Positions 491 to 53,570 of a stretch of DNA of 64,000 bases are shown here, one piece after another. The DNA is from Kalaharituber pfeilii. Lineage: Eukaryota > Ascomycota > Pezizomycetes > Pezizales > Pezizaceae. The position numbers and the translations under genes are program-made. The notes below the pieces were generated by a model that saw only the letters and a list, made by a program, of their open reading frames with translations, was not told the DNA's origin and made no database searches. Position 1 is the stretch's first letter. Every line of letters starts with the position of its first letter. The stretch is taken from NCBI GenBank assembly GCA_015179045.1, contig WHUZ01000142.1:1-64000 (forward strand). Reading direction: 5' to 3'.

Positions 491-551
491 TTTTTTTTTT
501 TTTTTTTTTTTGTCACATGACCCCGCATGCGGCTCTTCGCCATGGCAGGAC
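491..551 (-). mobile_element. LINE-A tail micro-insertion (61 bp)
   Basis: A poly(T) run is followed by the family-A tail in reverse (TGTCACATGACCCCGC, then GGCTCTTCGCCATGGCAGGAC). The insert is bordered by the 13-bp direct repeat GATACTTTAGCAT at 478-490 and 552-564, a clear target-site duplication. Nothing but tail is present. In sense orientation it begins just before CCATGGCGA, as do the copies at 4326 and 9444. Confidence 0.85.
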
Positions 552-2785: not shown

Positions 2786-3721
2786 CTACTCCTTTATCTC
2801 CCTCCCCGTCATCTTCGCCCTCCTCCTATATTTCAAAACCCTCTCCCCTTCCCCGCCCTTCTCCCTCAGCGCCTTCCACCCTTTTTCAAAGGCAACCTCC
2901 CCCAAAGTTGCCATCACCCAAACCCATGCTGCCCCCAGCCTCTTCGCCTCTCTTTCCTTCCCTTCTTTCCTCAGCCTGTCCGCTCTCCCGTCCAGCACCT
3001 GTGCCGCATGCACAAGTGCTAGCACTTCTTTCTCCTCCCTCCCTACCCCTTTTTCATCCTTCTCTTCTTCTTCCCCCTCTTCCTCGTTCTGCCCCATCTC
3101 CTCATCATCGTCTTCCTCCTTTCCCCTCTTAGCTCCACCTACTTTTTCTTTCTCTTCTCCTCGTTCCTCCACTCTAGCTAGTACCGGCGCTGCTGCCGGC
3201 AACTCTGCCACCGGCCCAACGCCCAGCTGTGAATCTCTGATCTCCCATTCCCCCCCATTCCTATCCCTGAATCCTTCCCTCCTTCCTCCCCTTCTCTCGC
3301 ATGGAGACCTACTCCTGCTGCCTCTCCTCTCCCTTCTTCTTCCCCAGCTCATCATCACCCTCGTAACTCTGGGAACCCGTTGCTCCTTCTGGCAAACCAC
3401 TAACGGTCCCCGCTTGACTGTGATATATTCTCTTATCGCATTCCCTAGAACCTCTTGCTCCCTTTCTACTACGATTCTATCCTCCCCCTCCACATACCTC
3501 CGGAACATCGCCGCATCCTTACTCCAGAGCTTCACGACCCTTGCTACCTCCGCGATCCCCATGAGCTCTTCCGTCTTCACCCACTCCACCTCCTCTACTC
3601 CCTTCCTCGCTGCTGCCTCTACTGCCTCCTTTCTAATCTCTTCGATCATATCCAACTTCCCATCATACATCAGTAAACATGAAGTTGCGCCCCGACACAC
3701 CCACTTAGCGTCCGGACACAA
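2786..3721 (-). CDS. Uncharacterised charged protein (311 aa)
   Basis: An uninterrupted 311-codon frame on the minus strand. The N-terminal ~120 residues look like a compact, mostly helical domain (MIEEIRKEAVEAAARKG, then VEGEDRIVVEREQEVLG). Residues about 125-155 are arginine/serine rich (RRRERRGSRSRSP). About 195-235 form a glutamate/lysine tract with EEDDDEE and EEEGEEEEKDEK, and the C-terminal third is helical and basic. I do not recognise the family. On the plus strand the region is simply pyrimidine-rich, so part of its length could come from low stop-codon density. A degenerate, possibly related frame lies near 10620-10865. It sits among repeats and may belong to a repeated family rather than being a single-copy host gene. 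No introns are apparent; the start is the first ATG of the frame. Confidence 0.45.
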   Translation of the reverse strand: MCPDAKWVCRGATSCLLMYDGKLDMIEEIRKEAVEAAARKGVEEVEWVKTEELMGIAEVARVVKLWSKDAAMFRRYVEGEDRIVVEREQEVLGNAIREYITVKRGPLVVCQKEQRVPRVTRVMMSWGRRRERRGSRSRSPCERRGGRREGFRDRNGGEWEIRDSQLGVGPVAELPAAAPVLARVEERGEEKEKVGGAKRGKEEDDDEEMGQNEEEGEEEEKDEKGVGREEKEVLALVHAAQVLDGRADRLRKEGKEREAKRLGAAWVWVMATLGEVAFEKGWKALREKGGEGERVLKYRRRAKMTGREIKE

Positions 3722-3954
3722 TGCACTATTTCCATTGCGCTCAGTGCGCCCTTACGTCCTGACGCTAAATAGCATCCCATGTCGCATTGTGATGCAACAT
3801 ATTACTCTAGGGATCAATGGTCATTGCGTCTCGGCGCATTTGAGCGTCCATAATGTAATTTCAATAATTGACTTGCGCCCTGACGCTGGGGGTCGGCGTA
3901 AGACTACTGGGTCGGCGTGGGCTTGTAGATATCACCTTCGGTATGCCGATTCTA

Positions 3955-4325
3955 TTTCCAACCAATATCTCATGCGCACAGTGAATATACTTCCTATACT
4001 TATTGAATATCTCATGCACGTAGTGAATATACTCCCTATACTTATTGAATATCTCATGCGCACACTCAATATGCTCAATAATTTCTATATCTTATGCTGC
4101 AGTCAATGTGCTTCATATTCTCTATGCCTCATGGGCCGCTCAATGTGCTCAATACTCTCTACATCTCATATGTGCCTGGTCAATATGTTCAACATCTCAT
4201 ATGCGCCCGGTCAATATGTTCAACACATGTGCACTGCGAAAGTGGTCAATTCCCAGCGAATTCATGACCAATATGCCCAATACTCAATAATATCTATATC
4301 ATACCCATGCTCAGTATGCTCAATA
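3955..4325. repeat. A+T-rich tandem repeat (CTCATGCGCAC...)
   Basis: Diverged copies of a unit of about 45-50 bp containing TATCTCATGCGCACAGTGAATATACTTCCTATACTTATTG and shorter CAATATGCTCAATA variants. Frames through it are rich in SICSI/HILY-type repeats and are not genes. The preceding stretch 3722-3900 carries fragments of the TTGCGYCCTGAC repeat. Confidence 0.7.
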
Positions 4326-4386
4326 TGCCCTCCCATGGCGAGCAGCTACAAGCGGGGTCATGTGATATTAAAAAAAAAAAAAAAAA
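4326..4386 (+). mobile_element. LINE-A tail micro-insertion (61 bp)
   Basis: TGCCCTCCCATGGCGAGCAG, then GCGGGGTCATGTGATATTA and poly(A), flanked by the 12-bp duplication GTATGCTCAATA at 4314-4325 and 4387-4398. Only the tail was inserted. Confidence 0.85.
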
Positions 4387-4539
4387 GTATGCTCAATACG
4401 CTCAATTGGCCCAATGTGCCCAATATCTTCAGGGCGGTCATTATCTCAATCTGGCAACATCACATTGTGCCTGAGCTGCCCTGTTAGGACATTGCTAATT
4501 TGGGATAAACCTCACGCTAGCCATAGTATGATACAACTA

Positions 4540-4860
4540 GCGTTTCAGTAGATTACCTTCGGGCTTACTTGTTGACACTACCAGAATTAACCAGCGTTGA
4601 TCAGTACTCCTTCGGGCTTCTAGGTTGACACTACCAGAATTAACTAGCGTTAATCAGTACCCCTTAGAGTCTAGAAGGTAGGAGAGTGGGGTCAATGGCG
4701 TGGTGAGGCAGAAATTTTCTTTTAGCCTGTCTCCAGGCGTGCCGAGCGACCCTGCCATGCCTTAGCGGGGTTACGTGATTAAAAAAAAAAAGGAGAAACG
4801 CCTTAGGGCTTACTGGTTGACACTGCCAGAATTATCCCTCATCTTATGTCAAATTCACTA
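4540..4860. repeat. ~70-bp tandem repeat interrupted by a LINE-A tail
   Basis: Three to four copies of CCTTCGGGCTTAC...GTTGACACTACCAGAATTAACCAGCGTT. Between copies, about 4741-4791, lies another family-A tail (CCTGCCATGCCTTAGC, then GGGGTTACGTGATT and poly(A)). Its duplication is not clear. Confidence 0.65.
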
Positions 4861-8124: not shown

Positions 8125-9055
8125 ATGTCTGACGAGGTTGAGTTGCGATCAACGCAGTTGGAAGGTACTCCATTTTCATGGGAGCCTACGCCAACACCAC
8201 AGCCCACATCGGCACTGCAACCTACCCCTACACCTACGCCGGCCCCAGTTTCAACTCGTACACCTACACCAGTACATCTACCTAGAGTCTCACGTTCTAA
8301 AGTCAATTTAACACATGAGGATCGTCTAATACTTGTACGATTATGTGTGGAACATCAGACCAAACATCGTCGTGGCAATAAAGAGAATTTCTGGAAGGAC
8401 ATTAAGGAATATTTTATTCATACTATGGGTAAAAAGACTTAGTGATCCTAGAGATACAATGTCTAGTCTCCTTATCCAACTCGGCGTTGATGATAGACAA
8501 GAAGCAAAAGAATCAGGAACAGTACAGAATGATTCTGATCTTAAGCAAGTACTCCGGTTGTGGAAGGACCATATGGATGCGATGACAAAAGATACAGAGG
8601 ATAAGAAGAAAGTGAAGGAGGAGCTACAGGCAGAACAAGAGGCAGCATCCCAACGGCGCAATAATCTCCTCCTCACTAGGTCGCAAAAACGAAAAACTAC
8701 ATCACCTGTCAACCTAGACTCCTCAGATGATGAGGAATCTCCTAGCTTCATGGTTTCCAGAAAGCGAGCAAAGCGGCACCGGCGACAAAGCTCTACTGCG
8801 CTAATCTTGCTTGTAACAACAATTATGGATATGCGAAAGGATTCTCAAATATTTATTGAGAAGTTTGGCGATAAGATCAGTAATAGTTTACAAGCTTTAG
8901 CTACTAATTCGGCTCCTGAAAGACATCCTCAAGCTGACCCGAAAGCTATTGAATCACGACTAACTACACTGGAAAATGAAGTCCGCTCTCAGACATCTGC
9001 TATGGGACAAATCCTAGCTATATTGAATGATTTAAAGCAAAGCATACCAAATTAG
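8125..9055 (+). pseudogene. PIF/Harbinger Myb/SANT-like helper protein
   Basis: The frame starts at 8125 (MSDEVELRST) with a Thr-Pro-rich linker (PTPTPTPAP). A helical DNA-binding segment follows (LTHEDRLILVRLCVEHQTK, then ENFWKDIKEYF), typical of the Myb/trihelix partner of Harbinger transposases. The frame is lost near 8440 and resumes in another frame (LSDPRDTMSSLLIQLGVDD), indicating one small indel. The distal part has a charged coiled region (KKKVKEELQAEQEAASQRR), an acidic patch (SSDDEESPS), a basic cluster (KRAKRHRR) likely to be a nuclear signal, and a C-terminal coiled coil (ESRLTTLENEVRSQ). In the family this protein helps the transposase bind the element ends. Confidence 0.75.
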
Positions 9056-9294: not shown

Positions 9295-10435
9295 TTATGA
9301 TCCATTAAAGCATGTATGAGTGTTAGTTAATAGAATAGCAACCTTATAGTAGCTTTCCACCGGAGATATTCCAATCCTGAGATTGTCTTTCTGACGATTG
9401 AATCCCCATAAATTTGTGACTTTGCTGAAACCGTGCTCCACACCTTTTTTTTTTGTCACGTGACCCCGCCCGCAGCTGCTCGCCAAGGCAGGGCGTGCTC
9501 CACACTGATTCGGGAACTAGACATAACTGTATTCACTTTCTGCTTTTCCGGAGATAGAACTGTATTTGGCTCTGCTTTATAACTGCCGATTATTCCAAAT
9601 GAAGTTCCATAGGCTGGATCCCCATATAGATACAGTCTATCTCTTGTTCGAACACCAATATGCATATCTCGAAGGTTTTGTTGTAACCAGATTTATGAAA
9701 GACTAACCAATCCCCCATTGGGCCTTCATAAGGTCCGCCGAAATGTAAAATAATTCCATCAGGAGTCATAACTGCTTGGAACTTAATAGCATGTACTTTT
9801 TTATAACCTGAATACTATAGTCTTTGATCTTCACTAGGCCTACAAATCGGTCTCAAAGTTCCATCAATAAATCCCCAAACTCCATTCACTCCTCCAATAT
9901 CTCCTATAGCTCGTACATAACGTTTGAGTTGTGTCCGATTAAGACGTTTCTCATCCCAAAATAGCTTTGTACTATATCGAGAATCCAAATACTGTACACA
10001 AGTATTGAATATCGTAGATTGCCATGATGTAGATCTTCCAAACCACCAGATATTATCCTTATAACGATTTGGACTAGCAAGGCGATATAAGACAAGACAA
10101 AAGGCAACCTCTGGTGAAGGCTTATACTTAGTTGGATATTTGATCATATCCAGCCTAAGCTTTGGAAGTAGCTCGCGAATTTGATCCTTACTGAACCGAA
10201 GATATGCTAGGCATTGCTCATCTGTCAAGTTATCTAGAGAAAACTGAGCTCGATGAGGCATATCTAATGGCTTCCGGTAGCGTGAGCATTTCTTTCGCTT
10301 AAGACAAAGGTATAGAGTAATCAATAATGCTGTATCTGACATAGTGGTCAGAATTTCGGTAGCAGTAGTCATAGCAGTAGTGGCTACACCTGTAGCAATA
10401 GCTATAGTAGTAAGCTTAGAATTGAGTGTTGCCAT
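9295..10435 (-). pseudogene. PIF/Harbinger DDE transposase, broken
   Basis: Starts at 10435. The N-terminal half has the helical region LTDEQCLAYLRFSKDQIREL and FCLVLYRLASPNRYKD. The first catalytic Asp is in GVWGFIDGTLRPICRP. A single in-frame TAG follows SEDQRL, and the same frame then continues with YSGYKKVHAIKFQAVM and GGPYEGPMGDW, so that stop is a point mutation. A frameshift near 9660 leads to the second Asp (LYLYGDPAYG). The last acidic residue (SVEHA) is split by a 50-bp LINE-A tail, after which FSKVTNLWGFNRQKDN continues to the stop at 9295. All three catalytic blocks remain recognisable (DDE_Tnp_4 type). It is inactive as it stands. Confidence 0.85.
9444..9493 (-). mobile_element. 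LINE-A tail micro-insertion (50 bp)
   Basis: Poly(T), TGTCACGTGACCCCGCC, then GCTGCTCGCCAAGGCAGGG, with the 12-bp duplication CGTGCTCCACAC at 9432-9443 and 9494-9505. It lies inside the third catalytic block of the Harbinger transposase, so it post-dates that element. Confidence 0.88.
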
Positions 10436-11456: not shown

Positions 11457-11777
11457 TATATTGGAGCAGGCCCCTTACACCTTGCGTATCTTCAAGCTGC
11501 TACAAAACAATTCAAACATAAGTTTAAGCTAACATATCAAAACAGAGAATGAGATACGGTACTTACTTCTTGTAGGCTGCCATCAATAGAACAATGTATT
11601 TTTTTTTTTTTTTTTTTTTATATCATTAATCGCTTGCCGCCCTATGGGCTATGGCGATGTCCTAGATACATAATGAAACGAGTAAGGTAGCCCTCCCCTT
11701 GTCGTCCCTCTACTACATGACAGGAAAATTTCTCCGCGTTCTGGACTCACTCCCCCAACATGTCTATCATCGCCCTC

Positions 11778-11973
11778 TTTTTTTTTTTTTTTTTTTTTTT
11801 AATTTCATTACTCGCATGCCGCCCTGTGGGCTATGGCGAGGTTTTATAAAAGAAGAATAAACTAACTAAATACATGATGCCCGCGGTTCACATAGTATTG
11901 CGGGGGGAGCGGTCAGCAGTCTGAATCATCTCCGTCCTCTTTCAGTCTCATACTGGCTCGCCTTGAGCCATCT
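11778..11973 (-). mobile_element. LINE-B 3' end inserted into a LINE-B copy (196 bp)
   Basis: Poly(T), inverted hairpin (ACTCGCATGCCGCCC, GGGCTATGGCGAGG), the 3' UTR with CCGCGG, and the last ~20 codons of ORF2. The 15-bp duplication TCTATCATCGCCCTC is at 11763-11777 and 11974-11988. The insertion is in phase, so the host reading frame now ends in the guest's C-terminus. Confidence 0.88.
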
Positions 11974-13019
11974 TCTATCATCGCCCTCAGTGGGTCCCCC
12001 TCCCCCTCCTTCCCCCGTGGTGGTCTCCTGATATGCTCCTCCCCTCCTGGCCACCGCCGCCTCCATACCCTACACTCCCCTAGCAAGTGTCTCGTCGTCT
12101 CTTCCTCTTCTCCGCACCACCTGCACTCTGGGCCGTCCCCTTCGCCTAAATGCCACCTCCAGCCCCTCAGCCCCTTGCCCCCCAGGAGGCCCGCCGACCG
12201 TCCTATCCCATTGCCGCACCTCTCTAGCGGCTTGTATGTCAATCCCAACCGGTTCCTCTCCTCTGCTCTCTCTCTCCTCCCCCTCTGTCTCAATCCGGCC
12301 TCTGTCACCATCTCCGACTTGTACTGCAAAGCGGTACCCGTTCTCGCTGCCTTGTCAGCCCTCTCGTTGCCGGAAATCCCCCTATGCGCATTAACCCATA
12401 GTGCCGCTATGTCCCAGTCTCCTCTCAGGATCCTCTTTTCCCAGGCTTCCCTGAGCCGCCTCGTCGCCCCGTCGTGAGCGAGCTCCCCCCTTGACACCGC
12501 CGTCATCCTCTGGATTGCGTATCTGGAGTCCGTTATGATCAATAGCTCCCCTTCCACTCTCTCCATCGCCTCACTGATCGCCATCAGTTCCGCATCGTTC
12601 ACTGTCGCATCCTCCCCTAGATATATTGATGTCGAAATCCCCCCCCAAAACATCCCCGCTCCCGCCTTCTCCTCCCTCATGCTCCCGTCTGTGTATACTG
12701 GAACCCACCCCTAATCCGTAACATCATCTATATGTCTCTCCCACTCCCCCCCCTCCGCATCCCGGTGCAACGTCTGTATGACTGCCAGAGGCAATTCCCT
12801 GTTATGTGTCAACGACCCTCTCAGATACACTTTCTCCTCGTCCCCTTCTTTCAGCTGCTCCCCCTCGAATCTCAATGCTCTCGCCTCCACTCGCGTCGCC
12901 TCCCATCTCACAAACGTCTCCACCGACTCCAAGTTTGCTAATCCTTCCACCACGTCCCGCCTCGTCCCCCACGGGGCATGCGTGATCCCCCTCGCCACCG
13001 TGTACTGCCATTTCTCCAA
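11913..13019 (-). pseudogene. LINE-B ORF2 C-terminal part: RNase H and zinc motif
   Basis: Reads from 13019: the connection segment EKWQYTVARGITHAPWGTRR, conserved in all LINE-B copies here. One in-frame stop (TAG, near 12713) follows, then the RNase H domain with all catalytic residues visible: D in VYTDGS, E in NDAELMAIS, D in IITDSRYA and D in GNERADKAA. The C-terminus has a C-x2-C-x7-H-x4-C motif (CRWCGEEEETTRHLLGEC), typical of this LINE group. The reverse transcriptase is missing through 5' truncation. Downstream of MIED the sequence comes from the nested copy at 11778-11973. Confidence 0.88.
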
Positions 13020-17247: not shown

Positions 17248-17248
17248 T

Positions 17249-17280
<32 letters not shown>

Positions 17281-17319
17281 CATATCATTACTCGCGTGCC
17301 GGCTTGCAGGCTATGGCGA
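17248..17319 (-). mobile_element. LINE-B tail micro-insertion (72 bp)
   Basis: Long poly(T), ATATCATTACTCGCGTGCC, GGCTTGCAGGCTATGGCGA. The 13-bp duplication GGTAACAC(T/C)AATG is at 17235-17247 and 17320-17332 with one mismatch. It lies 57 bp beyond the oxidase stop codon, probably in its 3' UTR. Confidence 0.85.
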
Positions 17320-17568: not shown

Positions 17569-17632
17569 ATTTTTATTTTATTTTTTTTTTTTAATATCAG
17601 TGATCGGGTGCCGCCCTAAGGGCTATGGCGAT
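17569..17632 (-). mobile_element. LINE-B tail micro-insertion (64 bp)
   Basis: T-rich tail, AATATCAGTGATCGGGTGCCG, CCCTAAGGGCTATGGCGAT. The perfect 11-bp duplication TGCATTAGGTT is at 17558-17568 and 17633-17643. Confidence 0.88.
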
Positions 17633-18845: not shown

Positions 18846-19668
18846 CTCCTGTCGCATTCCTGATATATTTGGTGTAAGATAGACAGATAGTATCCACTAC
18901 TGCGTTTCGATGGACCGGAGGGGTGCGAACTGGCGGAACGAACGTACGACCAAATGCGAATGCGAGTGCGAAAGCGTGGGTGCGAAAAGAAGGGAAGAGA
19001 AGGTTCTTGATTGTATGTGCTACAGTACAGAAAGTCTATATCTCCTCATATGCTGCCGTTATGTCCACGTGCTATCCATGCCAAGCTTGCCTTTACCCAT
19101 TCCGTCGCCGTCACCACAATGGCACCAATCCTGGAAGAAACCTGAAAGCCATCTCGGAGGGCCGCCCGACACTCGGAGAGGCGGCTTCCCTTGTCTGGAA
19201 AGCCTGGGAAGACAAGACCAGGAGAGGGGACTGGATGTGGCGGTGATGTTTTTTTTGTTTTTTTTTTATTACTCGCATACCGCCTATCAGGCTACGGCGA
19301 GGGTGGCGGTGATGTCAGTCAAGGCACACAAGGGGTGACAGGCAACGAAAAAGCCGACAGGGTAGCCAAAATTGGGGCATTCCTCCCATACCAGGATGAA
19401 TGGGTCCCGGAGACCGGATTACGGGCATAAGCGAGCACACGACGAGCGAAGAGAGGAATCGACTGGGCCTGATCTACAACCCACTCCGACGATTTTGGAA
19501 TGGGCGGGGAGAGAATAGCATAGGGGTCATTTCTCTTCCTTGTTCATGTCGGTTAGGTCTTCAGTTATTTATATATTTCCTTTCCCCTCTCTTTCTTATG
19601 TACGTAATCTCACCATAGCCCCCAGGGCGGCATGTGAGTAATGATTTAAAAAAAAAAAAAAAAAAAAA
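18846..19668 (+). mobile_element. LINE-B fragment with RNase H and tail
   Basis: Decayed ORF2 end: NLKAISEGRPTLGEAASLVW, KAWEDKTRRGDW, then after a 53-bp insertion VMSVKAHKGVTGNEKADRVA. It ends with the hairpin CTCACCATAGCC, CCCAGGGCGGCATGTGAG and poly(A) to 19668. It separates two reverse-transcriptase pieces of the LINE-A host. The left boundary is approximate and the duplication is unclear. Confidence 0.65.
19250..19302 (-). mobile_element. LINE-B tail micro-insertion (53 bp)
   Basis: Interrupted poly(T), ATTACTCGCATACCGCC, TATCAGGCTACGGCGAGG. The perfect 13-bp duplication GTGGCGGTGATGT is at 19237-19249 and 19303-19315. It splits the RNase H domain of the surrounding LINE-B fragment. Confidence 0.9.
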
Positions 19669-19908: not shown

Positions 19909-20712
19909 AAGCAGTTGATGGCAGTGCAAAAGTACTACTACTCGCAGATTCTCAGGCAGCTATCAGTGCAGTCCAGAAAGCAGGAAAAACTGGCAAGGCA
20001 AGAACCGCAGACCTAGCGCGGGTGATAGAGCTGATTGCAGAGAGGCGGCGGAGGCTAAGGAAGGCGGATGCAGTGAAGCTGGCATGGGTCAAGGCCCACG
20101 TGGGGATAGAAGGCAATGAGAAGGCGGATGAGTTGGCCAAAGAGGGGGCCAAGTGCATGAGGTATGATGGGCAGGCCACTGAGGGTGGGCTGCGTCAAGA
20201 GTTAGTTCGAAAAAGAAAAGAGGAGAGGGAGCGTGCAGGGTTTGGGAAGGGCAAATTCGTGAAGTGGGGCAGGAGAGCACTCACAAATTACACTTGGCTG
20301 CGGACTGGAAAAGGCGGAGCTATGTGGAGGTGGATGGTCAGTGGCGAGGAGGTACAATGCACATGTGGTGAGGCATGGAGTGCTGAGCATGTGGTGTTCA
20401 GATGCACAGAACTGGAGCGGCCCCAGAGGAAGAACAAAAATGGGGCACATGTCACCTGGCAGTCCTGGAAGGACCTAGAGGAGAAAGGATGGAAGCAAGA
20501 AGGCGTGGAAGGTGACCCGGTCGAGTACTGGTTTGCCTGCCTCGATCTGGGGTAGCCGGGGACCGGGGGACGGAGGGCTCTGGGTGCTCAAGGGTGTATG
20601 TAGATTCCGTAGTTAGTTGTCTCAAACCTGGCCCGGGTATATGGGTCCCTGCCATAGGCTGGTAGCCTATATGCGGGGTTACGTGAATAAAAAAAAAAAA
20701 AAAAAAAAAAAA
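19909..20712 (+). mobile_element. LINE-A 3' copy inserted into a LINE-A copy
   Basis: A 5'-truncated LINE-A with RNase H, C-terminal tail, 3' UTR and poly(A), flanked by the 12-bp duplication AAGAAGAGGATG at 19897-19908 and 20713-20724. Removing it rejoins the host frame as KIKKRMDVEKCKWLDV. Its 3' end (GGCTGGTAGCC, then TATATGCGGGGTTACGTGA and poly(A)) defines the family-A tail seen in the micro-insertions. Confidence 0.85.
19935..20555 (+). pseudogene. LINE-A ORF2 end: RNase H and cysteine-rich tail
   Basis: After one frame change the RNase H domain reads LLLADSQAAISAVQKAGKTG (catalytic Asp in ADSQ), then LAWVKAHVGIEGNEKADELA (final catalytic block). The C-terminal part has KFVKWGRRALTNYTWLRTGK, GAMWRWM and a C-x-C...H-x4-C element (VQCTCGEAW, EHVVFRC), and ends at 20555. 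The first RNase H residues (YTDGS/E) and all of the reverse transcriptase are absent through 5' truncation. Confidence 0.8.
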
Positions 20713-23855: not shown

Positions 23856-23913
23856 TTTTTTTTTTCTTTTATATATCATTACTCGCGTGCCGCCCTATGG
23901 GCTATGGCGAGGT
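23856..23913 (-). mobile_element. LINE-B tail micro-insertion (58 bp)
   Basis: T-rich run, ATATATCATTACTCGCGTGCC, GCCCTATGGGCTATGGCGAGG. The perfect 12-bp duplication TATTGCAGGTGA is at 23844-23855 and 23914-23925. Confidence 0.9.
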
Positions 23914-30546: not shown

Positions 30547-30587
30547 TTTTTTTTTTTTATTTATTTATATCAATACTCGCAGGCCGG
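30547..30587 (-). mobile_element. LINE-B tail micro-insertion, truncated (41 bp)
   Basis: T-rich run, ATTTATATCAATACTCGC, AGGCCGG. The perfect 11-bp duplication CCTGCACGGTA is at 30536-30546 and 30588-30598. Only the 3' half of the hairpin was copied, making it the shortest insertion in the window. Confidence 0.85.
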
Positions 30588-33059: not shown

Positions 33060-33265
33060 TCCTAAACATTCCTGACAATTCTACCTGGTTCTAGTCATTT
33101 CCTTAGTCTTCTATATGTTTCTCTTGTTTGTTTATTTCCTCGAAGGAATTGGAGTTTGGCCATGGGGGCTCTCTATAAAAGAGGCCCTCCCTCCCCGCTC
33201 TCTAGACTCCCTATGCAACAACTTGTATTCCCATCCAAGTTATTGATTGAGCGCAACTTCATATG
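33060..33265 (+). mobile_element. Diverged LTR-like fragment
   Basis: CTCTATAAAAGAGGCCCTCC, then ATGCAACAACTTGTATTCCC and ATCCAAGTT, parallel the TATA region of the solo LTR at 43772-44552 (CTATAAAGAGGCCCTCC, GCAACAACTTG, CCCAAGTT). It directly precedes LINE-B ORF2 sequence. Boundaries are unknown. Confidence 0.5.
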
Positions 33266-34189
33266 TATCACAAGGACAAGAAACTACGACCACTACTATC
33301 AGACCAACAGGACTCACCGTCGAAAAAGATCAAGCCAGGATGATGATAGAAAAGGCACTAACAAAAGCTAAACCAAGATCAGCACCGGGACCCGATGGCA
33401 TACAATATCGCTTACTGAAGCTTCTGAAGGGTACGACTCTATGGACTGCTGTAAGAGAGAGAATTGTAGAATATATAAACGGTGACTACGATTTTGCCAG
33501 AGGCTTTGAGGTGGTTATGATACTCAAGAAAGGGAAACCCAGAGATCCGGTAGGGAGCTGGAGACCCATAACGCTTCTGAACACAGTAGCAAAGCTAGGT
33601 CAAAAAGTCATCGCAGACCTGCTACAAAGAAAAGACGACCTTTTCAGAGACACTCAGCTTGGAGGAAGACGCCATCGAGGTGCAGAGGATCTACAGCGAC
33701 AAGTGCTGAAGGAGACAGAGAAGAGGCTACAGAAGAAAGAATGGGTAGCCCTAGTGGGAGACGATATTAAGTCAGCTTTTAACTTTCTTCGAAGGGACAA
33801 GGTGGTTGCTCGAATAAGACAAACAGACCATAACTTAGCGAGCTTTGTAGAAGCTTTTATGATGCCGACCAACTACAACATGACATGGGATGGCAAAAGG
33901 AGAGCATGACAGATGGTACACCGCAAGGATCTCCACTATCCCCGGTACTATTCCTGATAGGTGTAGCACCTGTGGCAGAGAAGGTAGACCCACACAACTT
34001 CACCAGGTCATATGTCGATGATTTCCACAGTGTAATCTCACATCCGTCACTCCTAAAACTCCGACAATAAACCGCGGGCATCATGTTATATAGTTGGGAG
34101 CAGAGAGTTTGGGGTTGCTTACTTCGTTCCTTCGTTTTTATTTAAATAAAAACCTCGCCATAGCCCTCTTGGCGGCCTGCGAGTATTGA

Positions 34190-35589: not shown

Positions 35590-36080
35590 GGTATAGGCTC
35601 AGTGTCTATCACTTCTTCGATTCGTCGGCATGTGTTCCGTGCAGCTCTTCGACTCGTCGGTATATGCTCAATTCAATTGTCAACTCTTCGATTTTCATCG
35701 GTATAGGCTCAATTCATCAGTCTTCGATTCGTCGGCATGTACTCAGTTCAGCTCTTCGACTCATCGGCATAGGTTCAATTATCAATTGTCAGTCTTCAAT
35801 TCGTCGGTATGTGCTTACTTCAGCTCTTCGACTCATTGACATAGGTTCAGTCTTCGATTTGTCGGTATGTTCAGCTCTTCGACTCATCGGCATAGCTCAA
35901 TTATCAATTGTCAGTCTTCAATTCGTCGGTATGTGCTTACTTCAGCTCTTCGACTCATTGGCATAGGTTCAGTCTTCGATTTGTCGGTATGTGCTTACTT
36001 CAGCTCTTCGACTCATCGGCATAGCTCAATTATCAATTGTCAGTCTTCAATTCGTCGGTATGTGCTTAGTTCAATTGTCA
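35590..36080. repeat. Tandem repeat in the Ty3 3' region
   Basis: Units with CAGCTCTTCGACTCRTCGGCATAGG and CAGTCTTCGATTYGTCGGTATG alternate for nearly 500 bp between the chromodomain stop and the polypurine tract. Frames rich in SSALRLIGIG are repeat artefacts. Confidence 0.85.
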
Positions 36081-38330
36081 ACTCTTCGATCCATTGGCTT
36101 TCTTGGGTGCTCATTATGAAATTTAATAATTTCCTGCAGTACTAAAGGAGCCTGTAAATCATCGAATGATTCCCATGTGTCGGATTCTGCACCATAATCT
36201 TTCCAATGGACTCGGTACTTTACGCCCCCTTTGGTGCGTCTGCTATCAACAATACAATCCACCTCATATAGTGGTTCCTCTTCTCCATCATTATCTTCAT
36301 TGTCACTTCTCGATGATGGATCAACCTGTGGTTGCACTCTATCTTTAAAAGGCTTCAGTAGTGAAGTGTGTATCACCTTGTGCAGGCGTAGCCTTTTAGG
36401 AATGTTTAGCTCATACGCATGCCGGCTGATTCGTCGAGTAATGGTGTATGGGCCAATATACTTGCTGGATAAGGACTTGTTTCCAGTTTGTACTGTCAAA
36501 TTGCGGCGATCCACCCATACTTGGTCTCCAACTTGAAATTGGCGAGATTTGTCAATGTGGAGTGCAGAGCGCTTATCGTTGATCTGCTTGAGGGTTTGGT
36601 GAATCTGGCTGTGTACTGCGGCCATACGTTCAATCCATTCTTCAGCAGCTGGGCTGGCATATATGTAATCATCATTGACATGAATAGTACGTGGGTCAAA
36701 CCCATACAGGCTGCGGAATGGGCTGTATCCATGTGTGGCGGTATTTGTGGAGTTGTATGCGAATTCGGCTAGTGGTAGCCATTGTACCCAACGTTTCTGA
36801 CGATCATGGCAGTAGATTCTCAAGTATTGTTTGAGTGTTTGTATCGCTCTCTCACTCAAGCCATCTGTCTGTGGGTGATGTGCTGTTGACAGCCTCAGAC
36901 CAATATGAAGTTTCGCATTTAGATCTCGCATAAATGCACTTGTGAATTGTGGGCCACGGTCTGAGGTAACATGCCTGGGTAAGCCATGAAGTCGCCAAAT
37001 TTCACAAATGTAGGCATTTGCTACGTCCTCTGCTGTCCATGTCGTTTTAGCAGGTATATAGTGCTGCATCTTAGTAAAACGGTCTGTGATAACTAAGACA
37101 GCATTGAATCCTTCACTTTCAGGAAGTTCTCCTACAAAGTCCATAGCTATTTCTTCCCAGGGTAGAGTTCCTGTAGGCATTGGTACTAATTTCGTTTGGC
37201 GGGCATGTCTGTCTGCTTTAGCCTTTTGGCAATGATGGCAACCAGCAACATAGCGTGAGATATCCTCTTGCCATCCTTTCCATATAAAGTTGCGTGATAC
37301 AAGCTCTTCAGTACGTCGTCGTCCCCAATGGCCCGCAACTCTGGAATCATGACACTGTTGTAGCACAGCATGCTGACAATCAGTAGGTACAATAAGCAGT
37401 CCGCCTTCAATATCTTTGGGCCATGTTGTGACATCAATTCCTTCTAGGTTTGGGTCTGGAACGTCTTCTTCTTCAGGGTCTGAAGCATCTTCTTCATTGG
37501 CTGGAGTATCTTTGTTGGCTGGAGCATCTTCGTTGGCTGGAGCATCTTCGTTGGCTTGTGCAACTATAAGTTGGCCTTCTTTGAACATTGGTGCATTGGT
37601 TCCTGAAGGTTCGTTACGTTCTCGTCGTGTGATAGCATCTGGGCGTCCCATAGCTGATCCCGGTCGATACTTGATAATGTAGTCAAATTCAGCGAGCTTT
37701 TCGGCCCATTCAGCCTGTCGCATGTTTAATCTTGGCTTGGTCTGAAAGTACTGTAGTCCTTGATGATCTGTATGTACTTCAAACTGCATTGTCAAACTAA
37801 GAAGCCATGTACGCCAGTGTAGTAAAGAGCTGACGATTGCCCATAACTCTTTATCATGTATAGGCCAGTTGCGTTGATGTTGCTTTAGTAACCGTGAGTG
37901 GCAGTCCACCAATTTCCACTGCCGGGCTTCAGCCTCATTTTCGTCTGTTGCTGGGTGTAATTGAGAGAATACTCCTGCAATAGCTTGATTTGATGCATCC
38001 GTTTCAATGAGTGTGCGTAGTGTTCTATCATACTATGCAAGTATAGGAGCAGATTCAAATAGCTTTTTCAATTCGTCAAATGCACTCTGTTGTTGTTCAG
38101 CCCAGGACCATGGTATATCCTTACACGTCAACTCAACGAGTGGCTTGGTTTGTGCACTGTAATTCTTGATGAATCGTCTGTAGAAGTTGGTGAATCCTAG
38201 AAAAGACTGTACTTCTTTCTTTCTTTGCGGTGCTTTCCAATCTTGAATCACTTTTACTTTCTTTGGATCAATTTTGACTTCAGTACCATTGATGATATAT
38301 CCTAGAAAGCAGGTTTCTTTGACGTGGATG
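36071..38330 (-). pseudogene. Ty3 pol: RT end, RNase H, integrase, chromodomain
   Basis: Reads from about 38330: CFLGYIINGTEVKIDPKKV, QSFLGFTNFYRRFIKNYS (reverse transcriptase thumb). One in-frame TAG near 38030 is followed by RNase H with LIETDASNQAIAGVFSQ, HDKELWAIVSSL and VHTDHQGLQYF. Next comes a linker with PANEDAPANEDAPANKD repeats, then integrase: the H-H-C-C zinc region (HDSRVAGHWG...CHHCQKAK), the catalytic Asp in MDFVGELPESEGF, VTSDRGPQFTSAF, and the Glu in HPQTDGLSERAIQTLKQYL. After a KLIGPF-like block (SSKYIGPYTITRR) the chromodomain YEVDCIVDSRRTKGGVKYRV, HWKDYG...TWESFDDL ends at 36071. From 37912 downward it is one open frame of 613 codons. The catalytic palm (YVDD) is deleted, so it cannot act alone. 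Confidence 0.9.
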
Positions 38331-39981: not shown

Positions 39982-40045
39982 GACCCTCGCCATAGCCCGT
40001 TGGGCGGCACGCGAGTATTGATATAAAAAAAAAAAAAAAAAAAAA
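39982..40045 (+). mobile_element. LINE-B tail micro-insertion (~64 bp)
   Basis: ACCCTCGCCATAGCCCGT, TGGGCGGCACGCGAG, TATTGATATA, poly(A). Flanks AAGCTCAAC and AAGCTCCAAG suggest a worn duplication. Confidence 0.65.
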
Positions 40046-43771: not shown

Positions 43772-44552
43772 TGTAACAATCCAACCCGGACCCCTCGCCC
43801 CAGACCCTCCAGCTCCGGTCCTATACTGGCAACCAACGTACTACTCGCCAGTACTCGTACACGTGCAGCTGACCCTGACACCCTTGCAATTCGCCGCACT
43901 CCTTCTAGCACTCCGATATATATCCCTGCACCTGTAAGCACGCTTAAGCGACATGGCCGCCAGCATCCCGGTCATTGCTTAACAACCCGAACCGAAGAAC
44001 CTGCCAGAACCTGCTAGAAGAACCCGGATCCCCAGAACCCGCCGGAAAGCCGCAGAACCCGCCGGAAGCCATAGAACCTGCCGGAAGCTATAGAACCTGC
44101 CGGAAAGCCGTAGAATCTGCTGGAAACAGGTATCGCCGAGCTTATTCCCGGATATTCTGGACGCTTTTACCTGCTTCCAGTCATTCCTTGGTCATCCATG
44201 TACTTCCTGTCGTTTCCTTTGTTTTCCATATACTTCTAGTCGCTTCTCGGTTTTCCATGTACGTCGTTTGTTTGCTTGTTTGCTTGTTTGCTTGTTTGCT
44301 TGTTTGCTTGTTTGCCTGGATTTTCCACCGAGGGTTTTCTATAAAGAGGCCCTCCTCCCTCCTCCCTCTTGCTTCTCCACGCAACAACTTGTTTCCTACC
44401 CAAGTTGTATATTTAGCCTTTTAATACATCTACCTCTCGATATCTCATAGTTCCGACCGCCTCTGCCTCCGCCTCCACTGTGACCTCGCCTCGGCGCCCG
44501 CCGCCCACCCCGTACCCAGATCCTGTACCCTGGCCCGGACCCATTCGTTACA
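43772..44552. mobile_element. Solo LTR 2 (781 bp)
   Basis: TGTAACAATCCAACCCGGACC...CATTCGTTACA with the exact 5-bp duplication GAAAA at 43767-43771 and 44553-44557. Inside are GAACCTGCCGGAAAGCC tandem repeats, a TTTGCTTG microsatellite (44262-44312) and a TATA-like CTATAAAGAGG near 44340. Related to 31706-32533. Confidence 0.9.
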
Positions 44553-45080
44553 GAAAAACTGTTCCCGACGCAAATCAGAGTAACGGGCTAGCGAGGTCAT
44601 ATGTTTGGCATGCCGTGGCAAAAAGAGGTCTGAAGTCAGAGACACCGGAAGACTGGGAGACGTGGGAGGCTGGGAATACAAGCGCATCACTGCCGGAATA
44701 TCCTTTGCGGGTCTCGCCAATGTAGATAGGAAAAGGCGCCGAAGTCGTTGCAGACTATGTGAAGCAATGTGAGGCGGGGGCAAAATGGCGAGATTTGGGG
44801 AGGGTATATCGATGGCAGTGGGGGGAGTCTTCACGGCTCCCCAATTATTCTGTGCAGCGAAAAGGTAGGACCGGGAATGAGTTTCATGAGCCTGTGTGGA
44901 GGCCCTAATGTATATATTTTTCTATGTGTTATAGAGTTGGGCTGCTGGCGGCTTTGATAATGTTTTTCTTTTTGTTTTCATGATTTCTTTGTAGTCTTTT
45001 TCGCATTGCGCAGCCCGCACAGCAGCAATAGTCTCATGGGCATGGAGAAGAGATATTGACCTTTGCTATTGATCTGCAAT

Positions 45081-45136
45081 CTCGCCATAGCCCACAGGGC
45101 GGCATGCGAGTACTGAAATAAAAAAAAAAAAAAAAA
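45081..45136 (+). mobile_element. LINE-B tail micro-insertion (56 bp)
   Basis: Begins exactly with CTCGCCATAGCCC, then ACAGGGCGGCATGCGAG, TACTGAAATA and poly(A). The perfect duplication GATCTGCAAT is at 45071-45080 and 45137-45146. The cleanest hairpin-only insertion in the window. Confidence 0.92.
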
Positions 45137-45449
45137 GATCTGCAATCATATTACTATGTGTGAGAAAACAAGGTGCGAGACGACGGAGGCAACACCGGTG
45201 GGAGAGGAAAGGCGCTGACTTTCCGCCATTGCCACCAAACTAACATTCCGCGTCGCCGCCGAAAGTTCAAAATGGGAAAAAATCGAATGACAAAACGGCA
45301 ATATTCAGCGCGGTCTCGGCTTGCGCAGTCTCGGCTTGCGCAGGGAACTGGCAGCCGCACCGGCTTGGCGTGGCACCATTGGAACGATGACTAATTTTTC
45401 CAAGCCAAGATGTTCAACTGCAATCTTGTCAACTTTTTACTTCTGGAAA

Positions 45450-46134
45450 CAATGGGTGCCTTCCGCTAAGGATTTATGTGAAATTCAAACCCCTGCTTTG
45501 AAATAAAACTGGGGTCCGTATCCCTGTTTTATTGTTTGGTAGAGCGTTCGAAACAATTTTTTGAAAGAGGGGTACCCCCCCCCCCTTTCAAAAAACTCAC
45601 TTGAATAAACAATAAACAATAAATTTCAAAAGCAGTTAGTTAGAGTACACTACTGCTGAAGTAGCATAGTCTACAATAACTATACCATATAGAGGATATT
45701 TAAATTCACATTTGCATCATTCGCACCTATTCCTGCTTGCATATGTAATATCCAGTAATGCATTCTTATGCTCTAGCGAGAAATTTTCACTCCGACAGTT
45801 CAGCCTCCTCTACTCTTTCACTTTTCAGATACATTAATACCTGACTGCTACCTAGTGCTTGCCAGCAGAACTTGACTGCTATTTCTTAAGACCTAGTGCT
45901 CTCTTGGTGCTTGAGAGCTCCTGTTGTCTTTTGTGGTGAGATTGACAGCTTGTTCACTGGCTCATAATTTCTGCATTTAAGGTGTAAATGTCTGCATAAA
46001 CAAAAACTTTTCTTGATTTATTATTTACTCACGTCTAAGTGCTTAGAGAAACTACCCCCTGTTTGTAGTGGAAATGTACCCTGGTAAAATTTGGTTTGAA
46101 TTTCACATAAATCCTTAGCGGAAGGCACCCATTG
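45450..46134. mobile_element. Element with 41-bp perfect inverted ends (685 bp)
   Basis: CAATGGGTGCCTTCCGCTAA...GAAATTCAAAC at 45450-45490 is repeated inverted at 46094-46134 without mismatch. The interior is A+T rich and non-coding, with a strong hairpin at 45557-45596 (TTTTTTGAAAG / CTTTCAAAAAA around GGGG and C11). No direct duplication was found at the ends. It could be a MITE that lost its duplication or an inverted segmental copy. Confidence 0.6.
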
Positions 46135-48933: not shown

Positions 48934-51900
48934 ATGGATAAACAAAAACAGCGCAAGATGCTTAATCCGCTTGGATCACCGCAATTGGATTCGGCGGAGG
49001 TGAATTCAATCGAGACCTCATCGATATCGCTGTGGCAAAGATCGCTTCAGATAGCTCAGAGAAAACTGTCCGAGAAACGTCTACCCCCTCTCGAGATCCA
49101 CGACATTCCAACTCAATCGGCTAGTGAGATTATTCAATTGACCATAAGGGATTTACAAACCATCATCCATACTATTCAGCATAACGACAACGCTGTCGCT
49201 GTGGGGTGGTTGCAAGAAATTTTGCTCGTGTTCGAAAAGTATACAACCTTCGTGGATGCTGCAGTACCTCTTTTACTGCTATATTTGATTTTTTTAGCGG
49301 AACCGGCGATAGAATGTGATCCGGGGGTGATCGCTCTGGCTTGGGTGGCCGTCAGAGGTATATTGCAGGCATGTTGGAGTATTTTATATAGTCCATTCGG
49401 TACTTTAAAAAAAGGGTATGCTGACCTCCGGCAGGTTGCTCTCAATCATTTTGAAGTGGCGAAAAAGCTGGAGACAACTATCGCGACTATTCTTGACAAA
49501 ATAGCACTATATCAGTTCTACGACAATATATATAGAGACATATTGGCATTAGATATGCTATCTTTAGTTACGCCGTCTTCTGCTGCAACAATGCACACCC
49601 CCCAACAAATTCTGGCATCCTCTTTGCCGGAGCTATACGCTGCCATCCTTATTTTCTCGGTGAAAGCACGCCAATATTTTGATCCCTCCTTCACTAGTAA
49701 GACACTACAGATATACTTTTTGGAATATACCTCATTCTGACTTCGTATTTAGGGATCAGAAAATCGGGGAGTATATGGAGGACCACTGCTGTTGATTTCC
49801 AGCCGTTTATCGATGAGATCTTTGAGAAGGAACGGCGCGTTCGGGAGTGTGCAGACATGGCCAAAATGGAAATAAGCATGAGTCTGTTCCCCCGCTCATG
49901 TTGAGATGAAGCAATCTAAATGTGGTCTCTAGAGGGACCTGCAAGGTTACAGCAGGTACAAGATCTTCTCAATAACATTGAATCAAAAATGGCTTCGTTA
50001 GGCAAGCTAGACGGTCAGTGCATTTCAACTCCGTGAGAACATAAGGAGAAGCTAATTGAACATATAGAGATTATGAGCACCACGGCGGAGAATTTGAAAT
50101 CGGTGAAGGAAAGGAATTTGAAAGCAAAAGGTTCGGCTCACCAATTATTTTATTGTTTTTATTGCTTGCATAGCCCCTATGTGCTATGACAAGTGTGCAT
50201 ACTACTTCACATAAAGTGGTTCTATCTAACTGCTACCTATAGAGGAGAAAGTGCAAAGGCTTTTACGAGTACTATCTCCGCTTGAGGCTTGGAAACGGCA
50301 TCAGGACGTGTTGCCAAGTGGAGTCGATGGAACAGGAACCTGGTTGCTAGAGCATGAACATTTCCGCCTCTGGTGCGATCCCACCAATAGTCCAAGCGAC
50401 CGTATCCTGTGCTGTTTTGGGGGTGTAGGTACTGGTAAAACAGTGTTAAGGTACCTTCTTATGTACCCTGGAGAGGCTTGGATGGCTTTGCTAACGTCCC
50501 ACCTATGCATAGTTGTATTGTGATCGAACATCTCCTTCATGAATTCCCAAAGCGAGATAAAGTAGGAATCGCATGGTTATATGGTGACTACCGAGACCAA
50601 GGGAGCCAAACATTAAATAACATTCTTGGCAGCTTTCTCAAGCAACTTTTAACCGCTGCATCACACGTCCAGATACAATAACGAGCATCCTCGAATCCGT
50701 CCAAAAGCAAGAAAAGAGGGCGGACAATTCTAATGTTCTACAATTACTCAGGCTCACATTACCCCTGTTCGACAGCACATTTGTCTGCATAGATGCTGTA
50801 GATGAGTTAGAGCCCCAGACACGAAACAGTCTCCTCAAAGTGATTCGAAGCGAATTTAGCACTGCACGGATATTTGTCACCGGAAGACCGCACGTACGAT
50901 CAGAAATCGATAAATGCCTTGAAATGGAACGCCGGAATGACATCGAAATCATGGCTGACCGGGGTGATATCAAAAAATGTCTTCTTCTTCACCTTGCATT
51001 GGATACACATCCTGATGCCATGAATGAGGAGCTGGAAAACGAGATTTTGAGCACCATTCTTGAGCAATCTCAAGGAACGTAAGTGGTACATTCCTTTCCT
51101 CTTTCAAGACATACATTAATCAATTGATTTCAGGTTCCTATTTCCTGCTTTGCATATCCGTATGTTCCTTCAGCAGCGCACAATAGCAAAGAGGCGGAAG
51201 GCGCTGAAGAAATTGTCCCTGAGTCAGAATAACGTTATAGCATGTATGATTGATCGAGTTACGAACTCGCAGTCGTGCAGTTCTGAGCTGGGCATGCAAG
51301 TGCTAATGTGGCTACATCTTGCCTATCGGTCATTGAAGTTGGATGAACTCCGGCATGCTCTTGCGGTTCAGCAAGGCGATCTCGATCTAGATAAGGATAA
51401 TATTCCATCAGCGGAAACTTTGACGGAGTGCTGCCTTGGCCTCGCCGTCATCGACAAGGACACATCGACCGTTCGGTTCGTGCATCATTTATTGGATGAA
51501 TATCTCAAGCAACATAGCAAGGCTTATTTCCCTAATGGTCACAGCACTGCGGCGGAGACTTCTTTGACGTACCTTAACTTTATGAAATTAGCTTCCCCTT
51601 GCCCCACAGTCCCTGAACTTGACCAAAAGAAATCAGACTTTGCCTTCTTAGACTACGCAGCCTGTCATTGGGGCCACCATATACGACAACAGTCCAATGA
51701 CGCTGCGGCTGAGCTTGCCGGGAAATTACTACGACCGTATAACAGGCAGCCTCATAGTGCTTTGGGAGCCTTGTATATGTCTTTATTGCCTGACTCATAT
51801 CCGGAGTGGTCTGAACCTTCACCTGAGAGATTTATGGGAATACATGCGGCCGCTTATTTCGGACTGGAAACGGACATGGCTACATTGGGAAATGAGTACG

Positions 51901-53570
51901 CGGGTTGGGATTCAAAGGACGGGCACGGTCGAACACCACTGTCATATGCGGCTATGGGAGGACATGTGGCCTTGGTGCGGCTGCTGGTTGACCGAGAGAA
52001 TGTGGACGTTGATTCGAAGGACTATGATAGCCAGACACCGTTGTTATGGGCAGCTACACGTGGGCACGAGGTTATTGTGCAGCTGCTAGTTGAGCGGGGA
52101 GATGTGAGCGCTGATTGGAAGGATACTAAGGGCCGGACAGCATTGTCATGGGCAGCTGAATATGGGCGGGAGGCCGTTGTGCAATTGCTTGTTAACCGTG
52201 ATGATGTGAATGCTTACTCGAGAGATGGCAATGGCCGAACACCATTATCGTGGGCAGCTCAATATGGGCGGGAGGCCATTGTGCAGTTGCTTGTTAACCG
52301 TGATGTGAATGCTGACTCGAAGGATAATAACGGCCGGACACCATTGTCGTGGGCAGCTAGGAATGGGCAGGAGGCCATTTTGCTTGTTAACCGTGATGAT
52401 GTGAATGCTGACTCGGAAGATGGCAATGGCCGAACACCATTATCGTGGGCAGCTCAATATGGGCGGAAGGCCATTGTGCAGTTGCTTGTTAACCGTGACG
52501 ATGTCAATGCTGACTCGAAGGATAACGATGGCCGCACACCATTGTCGTGGGCAGCTAGGAATGGGCACGAGGCCATTGTGCAGTTGCTTGTTAACCGTGA
52601 CGATGTCAATGCTGACTCGACGGATAATAATGGCCGGACACCATTATCGTGGACAGCTGAGTATCGGCGGGAGGCCATTGTGCAGTTGCTTGTTAACCGT
52701 GAGGATGTGAATGTGAACTCGACAGATAAGGAAGGCCGGACACCATTGTGGTGGGCAGCTCTATATGGGCCGGAGGCCATTGCGCAGTTGCTTGTTAACC
52801 GTGACGATGTCAATGCTGACTCGAAGCATAAAAATGGCCGGACACCATTGTCGTTGGCAGCTGAATATGGACAGAACGCCATTGTGCAGTTGCTTGTTAA
52901 CCGTGATGATGTCAATGCTGACTCGACGGATAACAATGGCCAGACACCATTATCATGGGCAGCTGAGAATGGGCGGGAGGCCATTGTGCGGTTGCTTGTT
53001 AACCGTGACGATGTGAATGCTGACTCGAAAGATAACAATGGCCGGACACCATTGTCGTGGGCAGCTGCGACTGGGCGGGAGGCCATTGTGCCGTTGCTTG
53101 TTAACCGCGACGATGTCAATGCTGACTCGAAGGATAACAATGGCCGGACACCATTGTCGTGGGCAGCAGCTGAGAATTGGCGGAAGGCCATTGTGCGGTT
53201 GCTTGTTAACCGTGACGATGTCAATGCTGACTCGACGGATAATAATGGCCGGACACCATTGTCATGGGCAGCTGGGAATGGGGAGGAGGCCATTGTGCAG
53301 TTGCTTGTTAACCGTGACGATGTCAATGCCGACTCGAAGGATAACAATGGCCGGACACCATTATCGTGGGCTGCTACACAATTGCATGAGGACGCTGTGC
53401 GCCAGCTCGTTGACCGCAATGATGTTGATATCAATTCGAAGGACAATCAAGGTTGCACGCCATTGTCGTTGGCATCGGACGATAGCGGTCGCGGGTGGAT
53501 GGCTTCGTTGGAGCGTGAGAGAAAGGAGAGGATTATTCAGCTGTTACAGGAGCGTGGCGGTAGTTCCTAG
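48934..53570 (+). CDS. NACHT-ankyrin NLR-like protein
   Basis: Multi-exon gene. Exon 1 (48934-49696) gives a ~250-residue helical domain with a hydrophobic segment (AVPLLLLYLIFLAEPAIE), resembling N-terminal domains of fungal STAND proteins. Confident introns are 49697-49752, 50451-50512 and 51079-51133; at least three small ones lie in 49880-50245, where the frame pieces ARLQQVQDLLNNIE and EKLIEHIEIMSTTAENL are seen. NACHT core: P-loop CCFGGVGTGKT, Walker B-like TFVCIDAVDELE, then ARIFVTGRPHV. A winged-helix-like part (RFVHHLLDEYLKQHS) leads into 16 ankyrin repeats from 51910 to the stop at 53570. The family works in non-self recognition and regulated cell death, with the repeats as sensor. 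At about 50665 the frame shifts by one (ASHVQIQ, stop; then PDTITSILESVQ) with no splice signal, so the allele may be broken or carry a sequence error. Confidence 0.85.
51905..53440 (+). repeat. 102-bp ankyrin-coding tandem array
   Basis: Repeats of 34 codons, NADSKDNNGRTPLSWAA then xxGREAIVQLLVNRDDV. Units from about 52200 to 53330 are nearly identical in DNA (GGCCGGACACCATTGTCGTG recurs unchanged). Differences cluster at the residues just after WAA and at KD/TD. Two units are one or three codons short (52300, 52380) and one is a codon long (53165). Confidence 0.92.

Follow-up and report, generated by a model that had tools for sequence, protein, structure and literature searches.

The window analyzed in this study, a stretch of 64,000 nucleotides from contig WHUZ01000142.1 of Kalaharituber pfeilii, carries several very short insertions that consist of a hairpin, a linker and poly(A) (Table 1). 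The sequence-only reading of this DNA had described the one at 45,081–45,136 as a hairpin with a short linker and poly(A) in a perfect duplication, and re-reading of the sequence bore this out: GATCTGCAAT stands on both sides (45,071–45,080 and 45,137–45,146) without mismatch, and the duplication reaches 11 bp with the next C. Six comparable insertions had also been listed; target duplications were found at 17,248, 17,569, 19,250, 23,856 and 30,547, but no clean one at 39,982. The statement that the copies begin close to the foot of the hairpin holds for the five hairpin-only B copies of the window, whose starts lie at +1, +2, 0, -1 and -2 relative to the foot. The copy at 30,547 had been singled out as truncated, and it does start within the B hairpin, in the 3' arm. 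The attribution to a single LINE group ("LINE-B") was too narrow: the B hairpin-only inserts are real, but a second hairpin family, A, also makes them, with three hairpin-only copies in the window.

A scan against Rfam, confined to window positions 44,000–46,000, returned four weak matches under the gathering scores and none on the insert; for this local stretch, it rejects a known Rfam family as the identity of the insert. Elsewhere in the window, positions 36071–37912 (minus strand) hold a long open reading frame that by eye resembles the integrase end of an LTR retrotransposon with a chromodomain-like tail, and positions 51150–53570 (plus strand) hold an 806-aa open reading frame with, by eye, many ankyrin-like repeats. 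For the one window gene that was searched, the best named relatives belong to Tirmania, Jimgerdemannia, Terfezia and other fungi, mostly Pezizomycetes, at 40–43% identity.

Table 1. Hairpin insertions and LINE coding remnants in the 64-kb window.
Feature	Position	Strand	Details
A hairpin-only insertion	491..551	-	duplication ATGCTAAAGTATC
A hairpin-only insertion	4326..4385	+	duplication AGTATGCTCAATA
A hairpin-only insertion	9444..9493	-	duplication GTGTGGAGCACG
LINE RNase H open frame	11916..12680	-	PF00075, E 8.2e-15
B hairpin-only insertion	17248..17318	-	14-bp duplication CATTGGTGTTACCT/CATTAGTGTTACCT, one mismatch
B hairpin-only insertion	17569..17632	-	A-T foot-pair form (ATCG..CGAT); duplication AACCTAATGCA
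B hairpin-only insertion	19250..19302	-	duplication ACATCACCGCCAC
B hairpin-only insertion	23856..23913	-	extra LINE-like AC 5' of foot; duplication TCACCTGCAATA
Shorter B insertion	30547..30586	-	begins within 3' arm of B hairpin; duplication TACCGTGCAGGC
Reverse transcriptase fragment	33247..33906	+	PF00078, E 4.2e-8
B hairpin (site given earlier as 39,982)	39986..40015	+	clean target duplication not found; foot score 4
B hairpin-only insertion	45081..45136	+	30-nt hairpin, 9-nt linker TACTGAAAT, A17

The RNase H frame of the window sits in a 1,441-nt insertion with its own B hairpin (11629–11658) and a 13-bp duplication, and a further B insertion of 196 nt (hairpin 11811–11840) is nested in it, where it interrupts the end of the frame. 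Over 49 aa, the reverse transcriptase fragment shows 61% identity to part of L017, the only sampled locus at which reverse transcriptase (through this 49-aa match) and RNase H were both seen upstream of one B hairpin; no intact B-type open reading frame was encountered. RNase H matches commonly end approximately 75–130 nt upstream of B hairpins, and those before LINE-attached A hairpins (L009, L021) show 33–34% identity to the B-type query. The resident RNase-H-type fungal LINEs may belong to the Tad1-like clade. Duplication lengths have medians of 12–13 bp in every class, hairpin-only and longer alike. The base before the duplication is a pyrimidine in 79% of the B foot copies, 84% of the B mid copies and 74% of the A foot copies; the first duplicated base is most often A (46–62% in these three classes), which is partly a poly(A) effect. 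Except for their end point, the inserts look like what the resident LINEs would ordinarily produce.

Patterns were counted across the whole genome (78.03 Mb, 360 contigs), and loci were sampled. The B sample comprised 94 of 100 listed places with an exact B hairpin, taken as 20 stretches of up to 10 kb (L009–L028; L020 is shorter and reaches a contig end) and 74 stretches of 581 bases (L029–L102). To these were added 20 places of the A-T foot-pair form (L103–L122); L001–L008 overlap other stretches and were excluded from the counts. Scoring covered the 215 B copies that these 114 stretches and the window contain; 206 were usable after removal of 6 without a tail and 3 too near an end. As a control, each copy was paired with the downstream flank of another copy, and the cut-offs were set at 8 for foot scores and 9 for upstream scores. 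The best scores in the 206 swapped-flank trials were 7 and 8, respectively, compared with foot scores of at least 8 in 46 of the 206 real copies. Genome-wide, the consensus B hairpin occurs at 4,115 places (up to 3 mismatches), and the reversed control pattern at none.

The check proposed in the sequence-only reading, a plot of insert starts, was carried out on the sampled B copies and gave a sharp peak at the foot: 41 of the 206 copies begin within 3 nt of it (7 nt in all) versus 53 over the 428 nt upstream, which makes the peak approximately 47 times denser per base than the upstream region. A smooth length distribution without an excess at the hairpin start was looked for and not seen. The offsets of the 45 B foot copies were -11 (2 copies, apparently a single insertion present twice), -7 (1), -5 (1), -3 (2), -2 (14), -1 (5), 0 (13), +1 (4), +2 (2) and +3 (1), with two modes, at 0 and -2. 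A class with spread 5' ends exists beside the hairpin-only class, with 53 copies that begin 20–390 nt upstream of the foot. Six B inserts begin within the hairpin itself, at positions 13–25 (3' half), and none at positions 4–12. The "long" class (11 copies starting at least 464 nt upstream) hardly rises above its control (scores of at least 10 in 13 of 76 versus 11 of 76; of at least 13 in 8 versus 2) and was not used.

That the peak arose by chance, by an alignment artefact or by later loss of LINE bodies has a practically negligible probability. Such an explanation could draw only on the 97 of 206 B copies without an assignable duplication, many of which lie in 581-base stretches unable to show a longer LINE copy, whereas the duplications directly adjoin the hairpin and swapped flanks gave foot scores of at most 7 for B and at most 6 for A. 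The swapped-flank and reversed-pattern controls rule out chance, and the duplications rule out later deletion.

Every poly(A) tract found in the window and stretches L009–L028 (255,943 bp) was examined for a duplication within 450 nt, with or without a hairpin nearby. A score of at least 10 was reached by 81 of 277 tracts, compared with 1 of 277 control pairings. Removal of duplications of low complexity and of repeat hits on a start already counted left 78, and four of these, a tandem repeat in L012, were set aside to leave 74 short inserts. They include 22 B-only inserts (20 found by script and two by reading, of 52 nt in L009 and 58 nt in L014), 17 A-only inserts and 5 that begin inside the 3' half of B, and the A and B hairpin-only inserts measure 43–74 nt with poly(A). 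The counts carry a selection bias, as the 20 stretches had been picked for an exact B hairpin; the chosen copies account for 9 of the 74 inserts and 4 of the 22 B-only inserts. A separate B count without the 17 usable chosen copies at the planned place (n = 87) contained 22 hairpin-only, 22 mid, 9 long and 34 unplaced copies.

On the minus strand of L010 (strand position 8309), a 52-nt insert with the duplication ACTCCACCGAGA has no terminal hairpin. By eye, it consists of an internal segment of a B-type LINE 3' UTR (CGCTCCCCCCGCAACACAATGGAAACCGCGGGCATCATGT; compare L077) and poly(A); earlier polyadenylation may be its origin, again with a hairpin-like core. The minus strand of L012 (strand positions approximately 3660–4670) carries a tandem array with units of approximately 225–255 bp (AGTTATTGAATCTTAAGAATTACAC...).

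The B hairpin is a conserved 3' hairpin with compensatory changes and is selected for base pairing. Among 79 distinct hairpins, pairing is kept in 95.6% of paired cells (89.1% in shuffles), both sides have changed in 41 cells (9.0 in shuffles) and the covariation score is 0.224 (0.106 in shuffles); each of these values was reached by none of 500 shuffles. Two weaker measures gave 4 pairs with a both-side change versus 2.8 (reached by 78 of 500 shuffles) and 14 pair types versus 11.9 (19 of 500). Sliding the partner strand destroys the pairing. The internal loop hardly varies outside its last base, unlike the variable apical loop; in single-sequence folding, four of five tested hairpins fold as drawn, with z-scores from -1.6 to -2.8. 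By eye, the A hairpin, (G)CCCTGCCATGGCGAACAGCTGCAAGCGGGGTCACGTGA, is built like B: its lower stem has five or six pairs and its upper stem is short, with a loop of 5 nt, while CAT lies 5' in the internal loop and GCA on the 3' side. An intermediate form, the third hairpin (C, CCTGCCATAGGCTGATAGCCTGTATGCGGG), was seen at window position 20647, 242 nt past an RNase H match, and at L021 3626 (plus strand), and it occurs at 699 places genome-wide with up to 3 mismatches. An ambiguous tally of the C hairpin pattern gave 901 places, 395 of them with a LINE flank.

The sequence-only reading had offered two explanations, a reverse transcriptase that stops at a defined point or a hairpin that is a retrotransposed unit in its own right. 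For B, the defined stop fits best and the independent lineage is not supported. When 21 hairpin-only hairpins were compared with 48 LINE-attached ones, each with 8 tail bases (18 of the 48 being copies without a placed start, classed by upstream motif), the mean distances were 6.98 within the hairpin-only set, 6.89 within the LINE set and 6.90 between them (permutation p 0.57 and 0.65). The hairpin-only copies intermingle with the LINE-attached ones and form no sequence group of their own (p 0.57), on which ground an independent B lineage was rejected. Their foot pair is C-G in 14 and A-T in 5 copies. Copies that start at -2 have, as their two extra 5' bases, AC in 7 cases, AT in 3 and CC, TC, CT and CA in 1 each; in 49 LINE copies the dinucleotide at the same place is AC in 24, CC in 9 and AT in 7, and 13 of the 14 two-base extras occur there in LINEs. 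Since the hairpin-only copies are indistinguishable from LINE-attached B hairpins and their 5' edge bases are LINE bases, the B inserts are best read as products of the LINEs that reflect a defined stop on LINE RNA, and not as a new SINE; several LINE families supply the RNAs from which they are made, and they end either at the foot or two bases short of it on the 5' side.

The A hairpin behaves in part differently. A loose A pattern recovered 47 copies (44 usable), some of them B or C hairpins. The 44 divide into 19 that start at the foot, including one B hairpin, 8 mid copies and 17 unplaced ones. Of the first 40 exact places of the A 38-mer listed, 25 start at the foot, 2 upstream and 13 are unplaced, and by reading approximately 5 of the 40 have a LINE tail. 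Genome-wide, the left 20 bases of A occur at 2,878 places (up to 1 mismatch), the left bases with the LINE-A flank at 730 (up to 2 mismatches in 27) and a G-type second hairpin at 388; of the first 100 exact A places listed, 22 are also listed with an exact LINE flank. From these flank counts (730 versus 2,878; 22 of 100), roughly three quarters of the A places have no LINE tail, a figure that reflects pattern counts and not verified insertions and in which a diverged flank would count as detached.

The 5' edge of the A inserts is also peculiar. A G immediately precedes CCCTGCC in 39 of 42 A foot copies; the base at -1 is A in 13, G in 7, C in 2 and T in 2 of the non-foot copies, and A in 62 and G in 38 of the first 100 LINE-tailed A places listed. 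Bases beyond the constant G are present in 10 of 42 non-duplicate copies, with the LINE base in one only and non-LINE bases in 9 of 42. In the loose-pattern set, 16 of 18 A foot copies have a GCGAA or GCGAG loop, and nine copies of other LINE-A loop types are mid or unplaced, none starting at the foot; L017 holds a shortened A copy of another loop type that is hairpin-only, 43 nt long and begins with A. In two A inserts (L016, with a 16-bp duplication, and L124, with 13 bp), the start coincides with the foot of the next upstream hairpin, and L150 is perhaps a third, with an A-rich duplication below the cut-off. Overall, the A data are better accounted for by an RNA 5' end or by a lineage than by simple loss of grip; A may possibly be a short discrete RNA, a minimal mobile hairpin RNA.

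A separate SINE-like family, in which a hairpin RNA with its own source genes multiplies independently of the LINEs, would account for the excess of A places over those with a LINE-A flank or a G-type second hairpin and for the uniformity of A copies in G and loop type. We nevertheless consider it improbable, given that the B hairpin-only copies have no sequence group of their own and that, judged by space, the gap between duplication and hairpin is too small for an internal promoter. This gap is at most 4 nt before CCCTGCC in all 42 non-duplicate A foot copies. Of the 45 B foot copies, 41 have no more than 3 nt there and the other four have 5, 7, 11 and 11 nt. Such gaps leave no space in these 42 A and 45 B copies for a SINE-type 5' head with a tRNA, 5S or 7SL promoter. 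Nor is there room between duplication and hairpin for a chimera with a second RNA at the foot, which was rejected.

We propose that the hairpin-only inserts may be products of target-primed reverse transcription by the RNase-H-type LINEs of this genome, with the 3' hairpin as the putative grip site of the LINE reverse transcriptase. Synthesis would begin at the poly(A), pass through the linker and then the hairpin and, in approximately a quarter of B copies, end after the last hairpin pair has been opened and copied, when the specific hold on the template is gone; joining of the cDNA at the foot would then give an insert of 50–70 bp with a normal 12–13-bp duplication. The peak position, the duplications, the LINE origin of the hairpin and the constraint on base pairing are observed; binding of the hairpin by the enzyme and the end of synthesis through loss of hold are what we infer from them. 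That the reverse transcriptase lets go once the recognized hairpin has been copied has, in our estimate, an even chance of being correct. An enzyme that stalls on entering the stem, not once it has opened it, would be expected to give the B starts seen at positions 13–25 with none at 4–12. Against release stand the A data, which fit less well in their constant G, non-LINE extra bases and loop type, and the A starts at the next upstream hairpin, which a single grip does not predict; the B modes at 0 and -2 have no explanation under release, and the 97 unassigned B copies also weigh on this side.

The main rival to enzyme release is an RNA whose 5' end already lies at the foot: the LINE RNA would be cut or trimmed from its 5' end up to the hairpin, shielded there by its fold or by bound LINE protein, and the reverse transcriptase would copy the remaining hairpin RNA up to its end. 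The constant G of A and the non-LINE bases in 9 of 42 copies resemble run-off at a true RNA end with bases added, A starts also lie at the foot of the second hairpin upstream, and the parts of an R2 study available to us suggest 5' template degradation and report untemplated additions (PMC11331408). We still regard a shortened template as unlikely, although a serious competitor, as the extra bases of B are LINE bases, the six B inserts that start inside the 3' arm require another cause, and other LINE-A loop types yielded only one hairpin-only insert, itself shortened. A tentative reading, slightly more probable in our estimate, is that the LINE recognition hairpin has become a free polyadenylated RNA of approximately 40 nt plus tail, copied and inserted thousands of times; equally tentatively, the element would here be reduced to the handle of the reverse transcriptase, with the A family as the clearest case. 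In a further alternative, the copied stem would fold back, free the 3' end of the cDNA from the template, and be joined or trimmed there. An end flush with any hairpin, terminal or not, is what fold-back would predict, but it leaves the B ends at -2 unexplained and LINE-A copies with a similar stem yielded almost no such inserts, and we regard it as very improbable.

The cause of 5' shortening in most LINE copies is an old open question. Ordinary 5'-truncated LINE copies share with the inserts described here the LINE 3' end, the poly(A) and the 12–13-bp target duplications, but their 5' ends are spread, whereas the starts of the hairpin-only inserts peak at the foot. SINEs that share a LINE 3' tail are likewise short and non-coding, with duplications and a LINE-like 3' end, but they have a 5' head, whereas the inserts have only hairpin, linker and tail. 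The fungal SINEs named in the accessible part of one source, such as MgSINE (472 bp) and the AfuSINEs, are 140–900 bp long (PMC5063351).

Closer parallels come from LINEs with a 3' stem-loop. In the UnaL2 and ZfL2 systems, a region of the LINE protein binds the element's own 3' stem-loop, according to the portion of the source at hand, which makes no mention of hairpin-only insertions (PMC4176376). A conserved, covarying 3' hairpin across divergent LINEs is common to those systems and ours; there the protein recognizes the stem-loop, whereas here the hairpin is known from sequence alone. In the available excerpts on R2, 3' RNAs of 68–98 nt serve as templates for target-primed synthesis by R2 proteins (PMC12180492), 5' degradation of the template RNA is suggested and is countered by stable 5' folds, and untemplated bases are found at some junctions (PMC11331408). 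For MGL of Magnaporthe, the consulted part of the report describes reverse transcription that switches template near predicted hairpins, before GCC (PMC2104539); that fungal LINE, too, breaks off synthesis at preferred places near predicted hairpins, but its enzyme goes on to a second RNA, whereas the inserts here stop at the foot. Among the literature matches listed, no title or beginning of an abstract mentions hairpin-only LINE insertions, which does not prove their absence.

In the present case, one class of truncation ends at a single place, the foot of the hairpin presumably held by the enzyme, and this defined end occurs in two related LINE groups and in many copies. The diffuse question of truncation thereby becomes a concrete one: is the enzyme released after copying its handle, or is the RNA already short? 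The hairpin-only inserts also set a lower bound on retrotransposable length, and repeat surveys that use longer consensus sequences would probably overlook them.

Several individual insertions deserve a separate record. L154 and L155, approximately 24.6 kb apart on contig C168, contain an identical A hairpin-only insertion with identical flanks, from which it seems that the segment was duplicated after the insertion; a segmental duplication of this kind may also link L026 and L029. At L025 4943–5054, a two-hairpin A insert lies, with poly(T) at one end and poly(A) at the opposite end, inside a single palindromic duplication (AACTTGTAAGTT).
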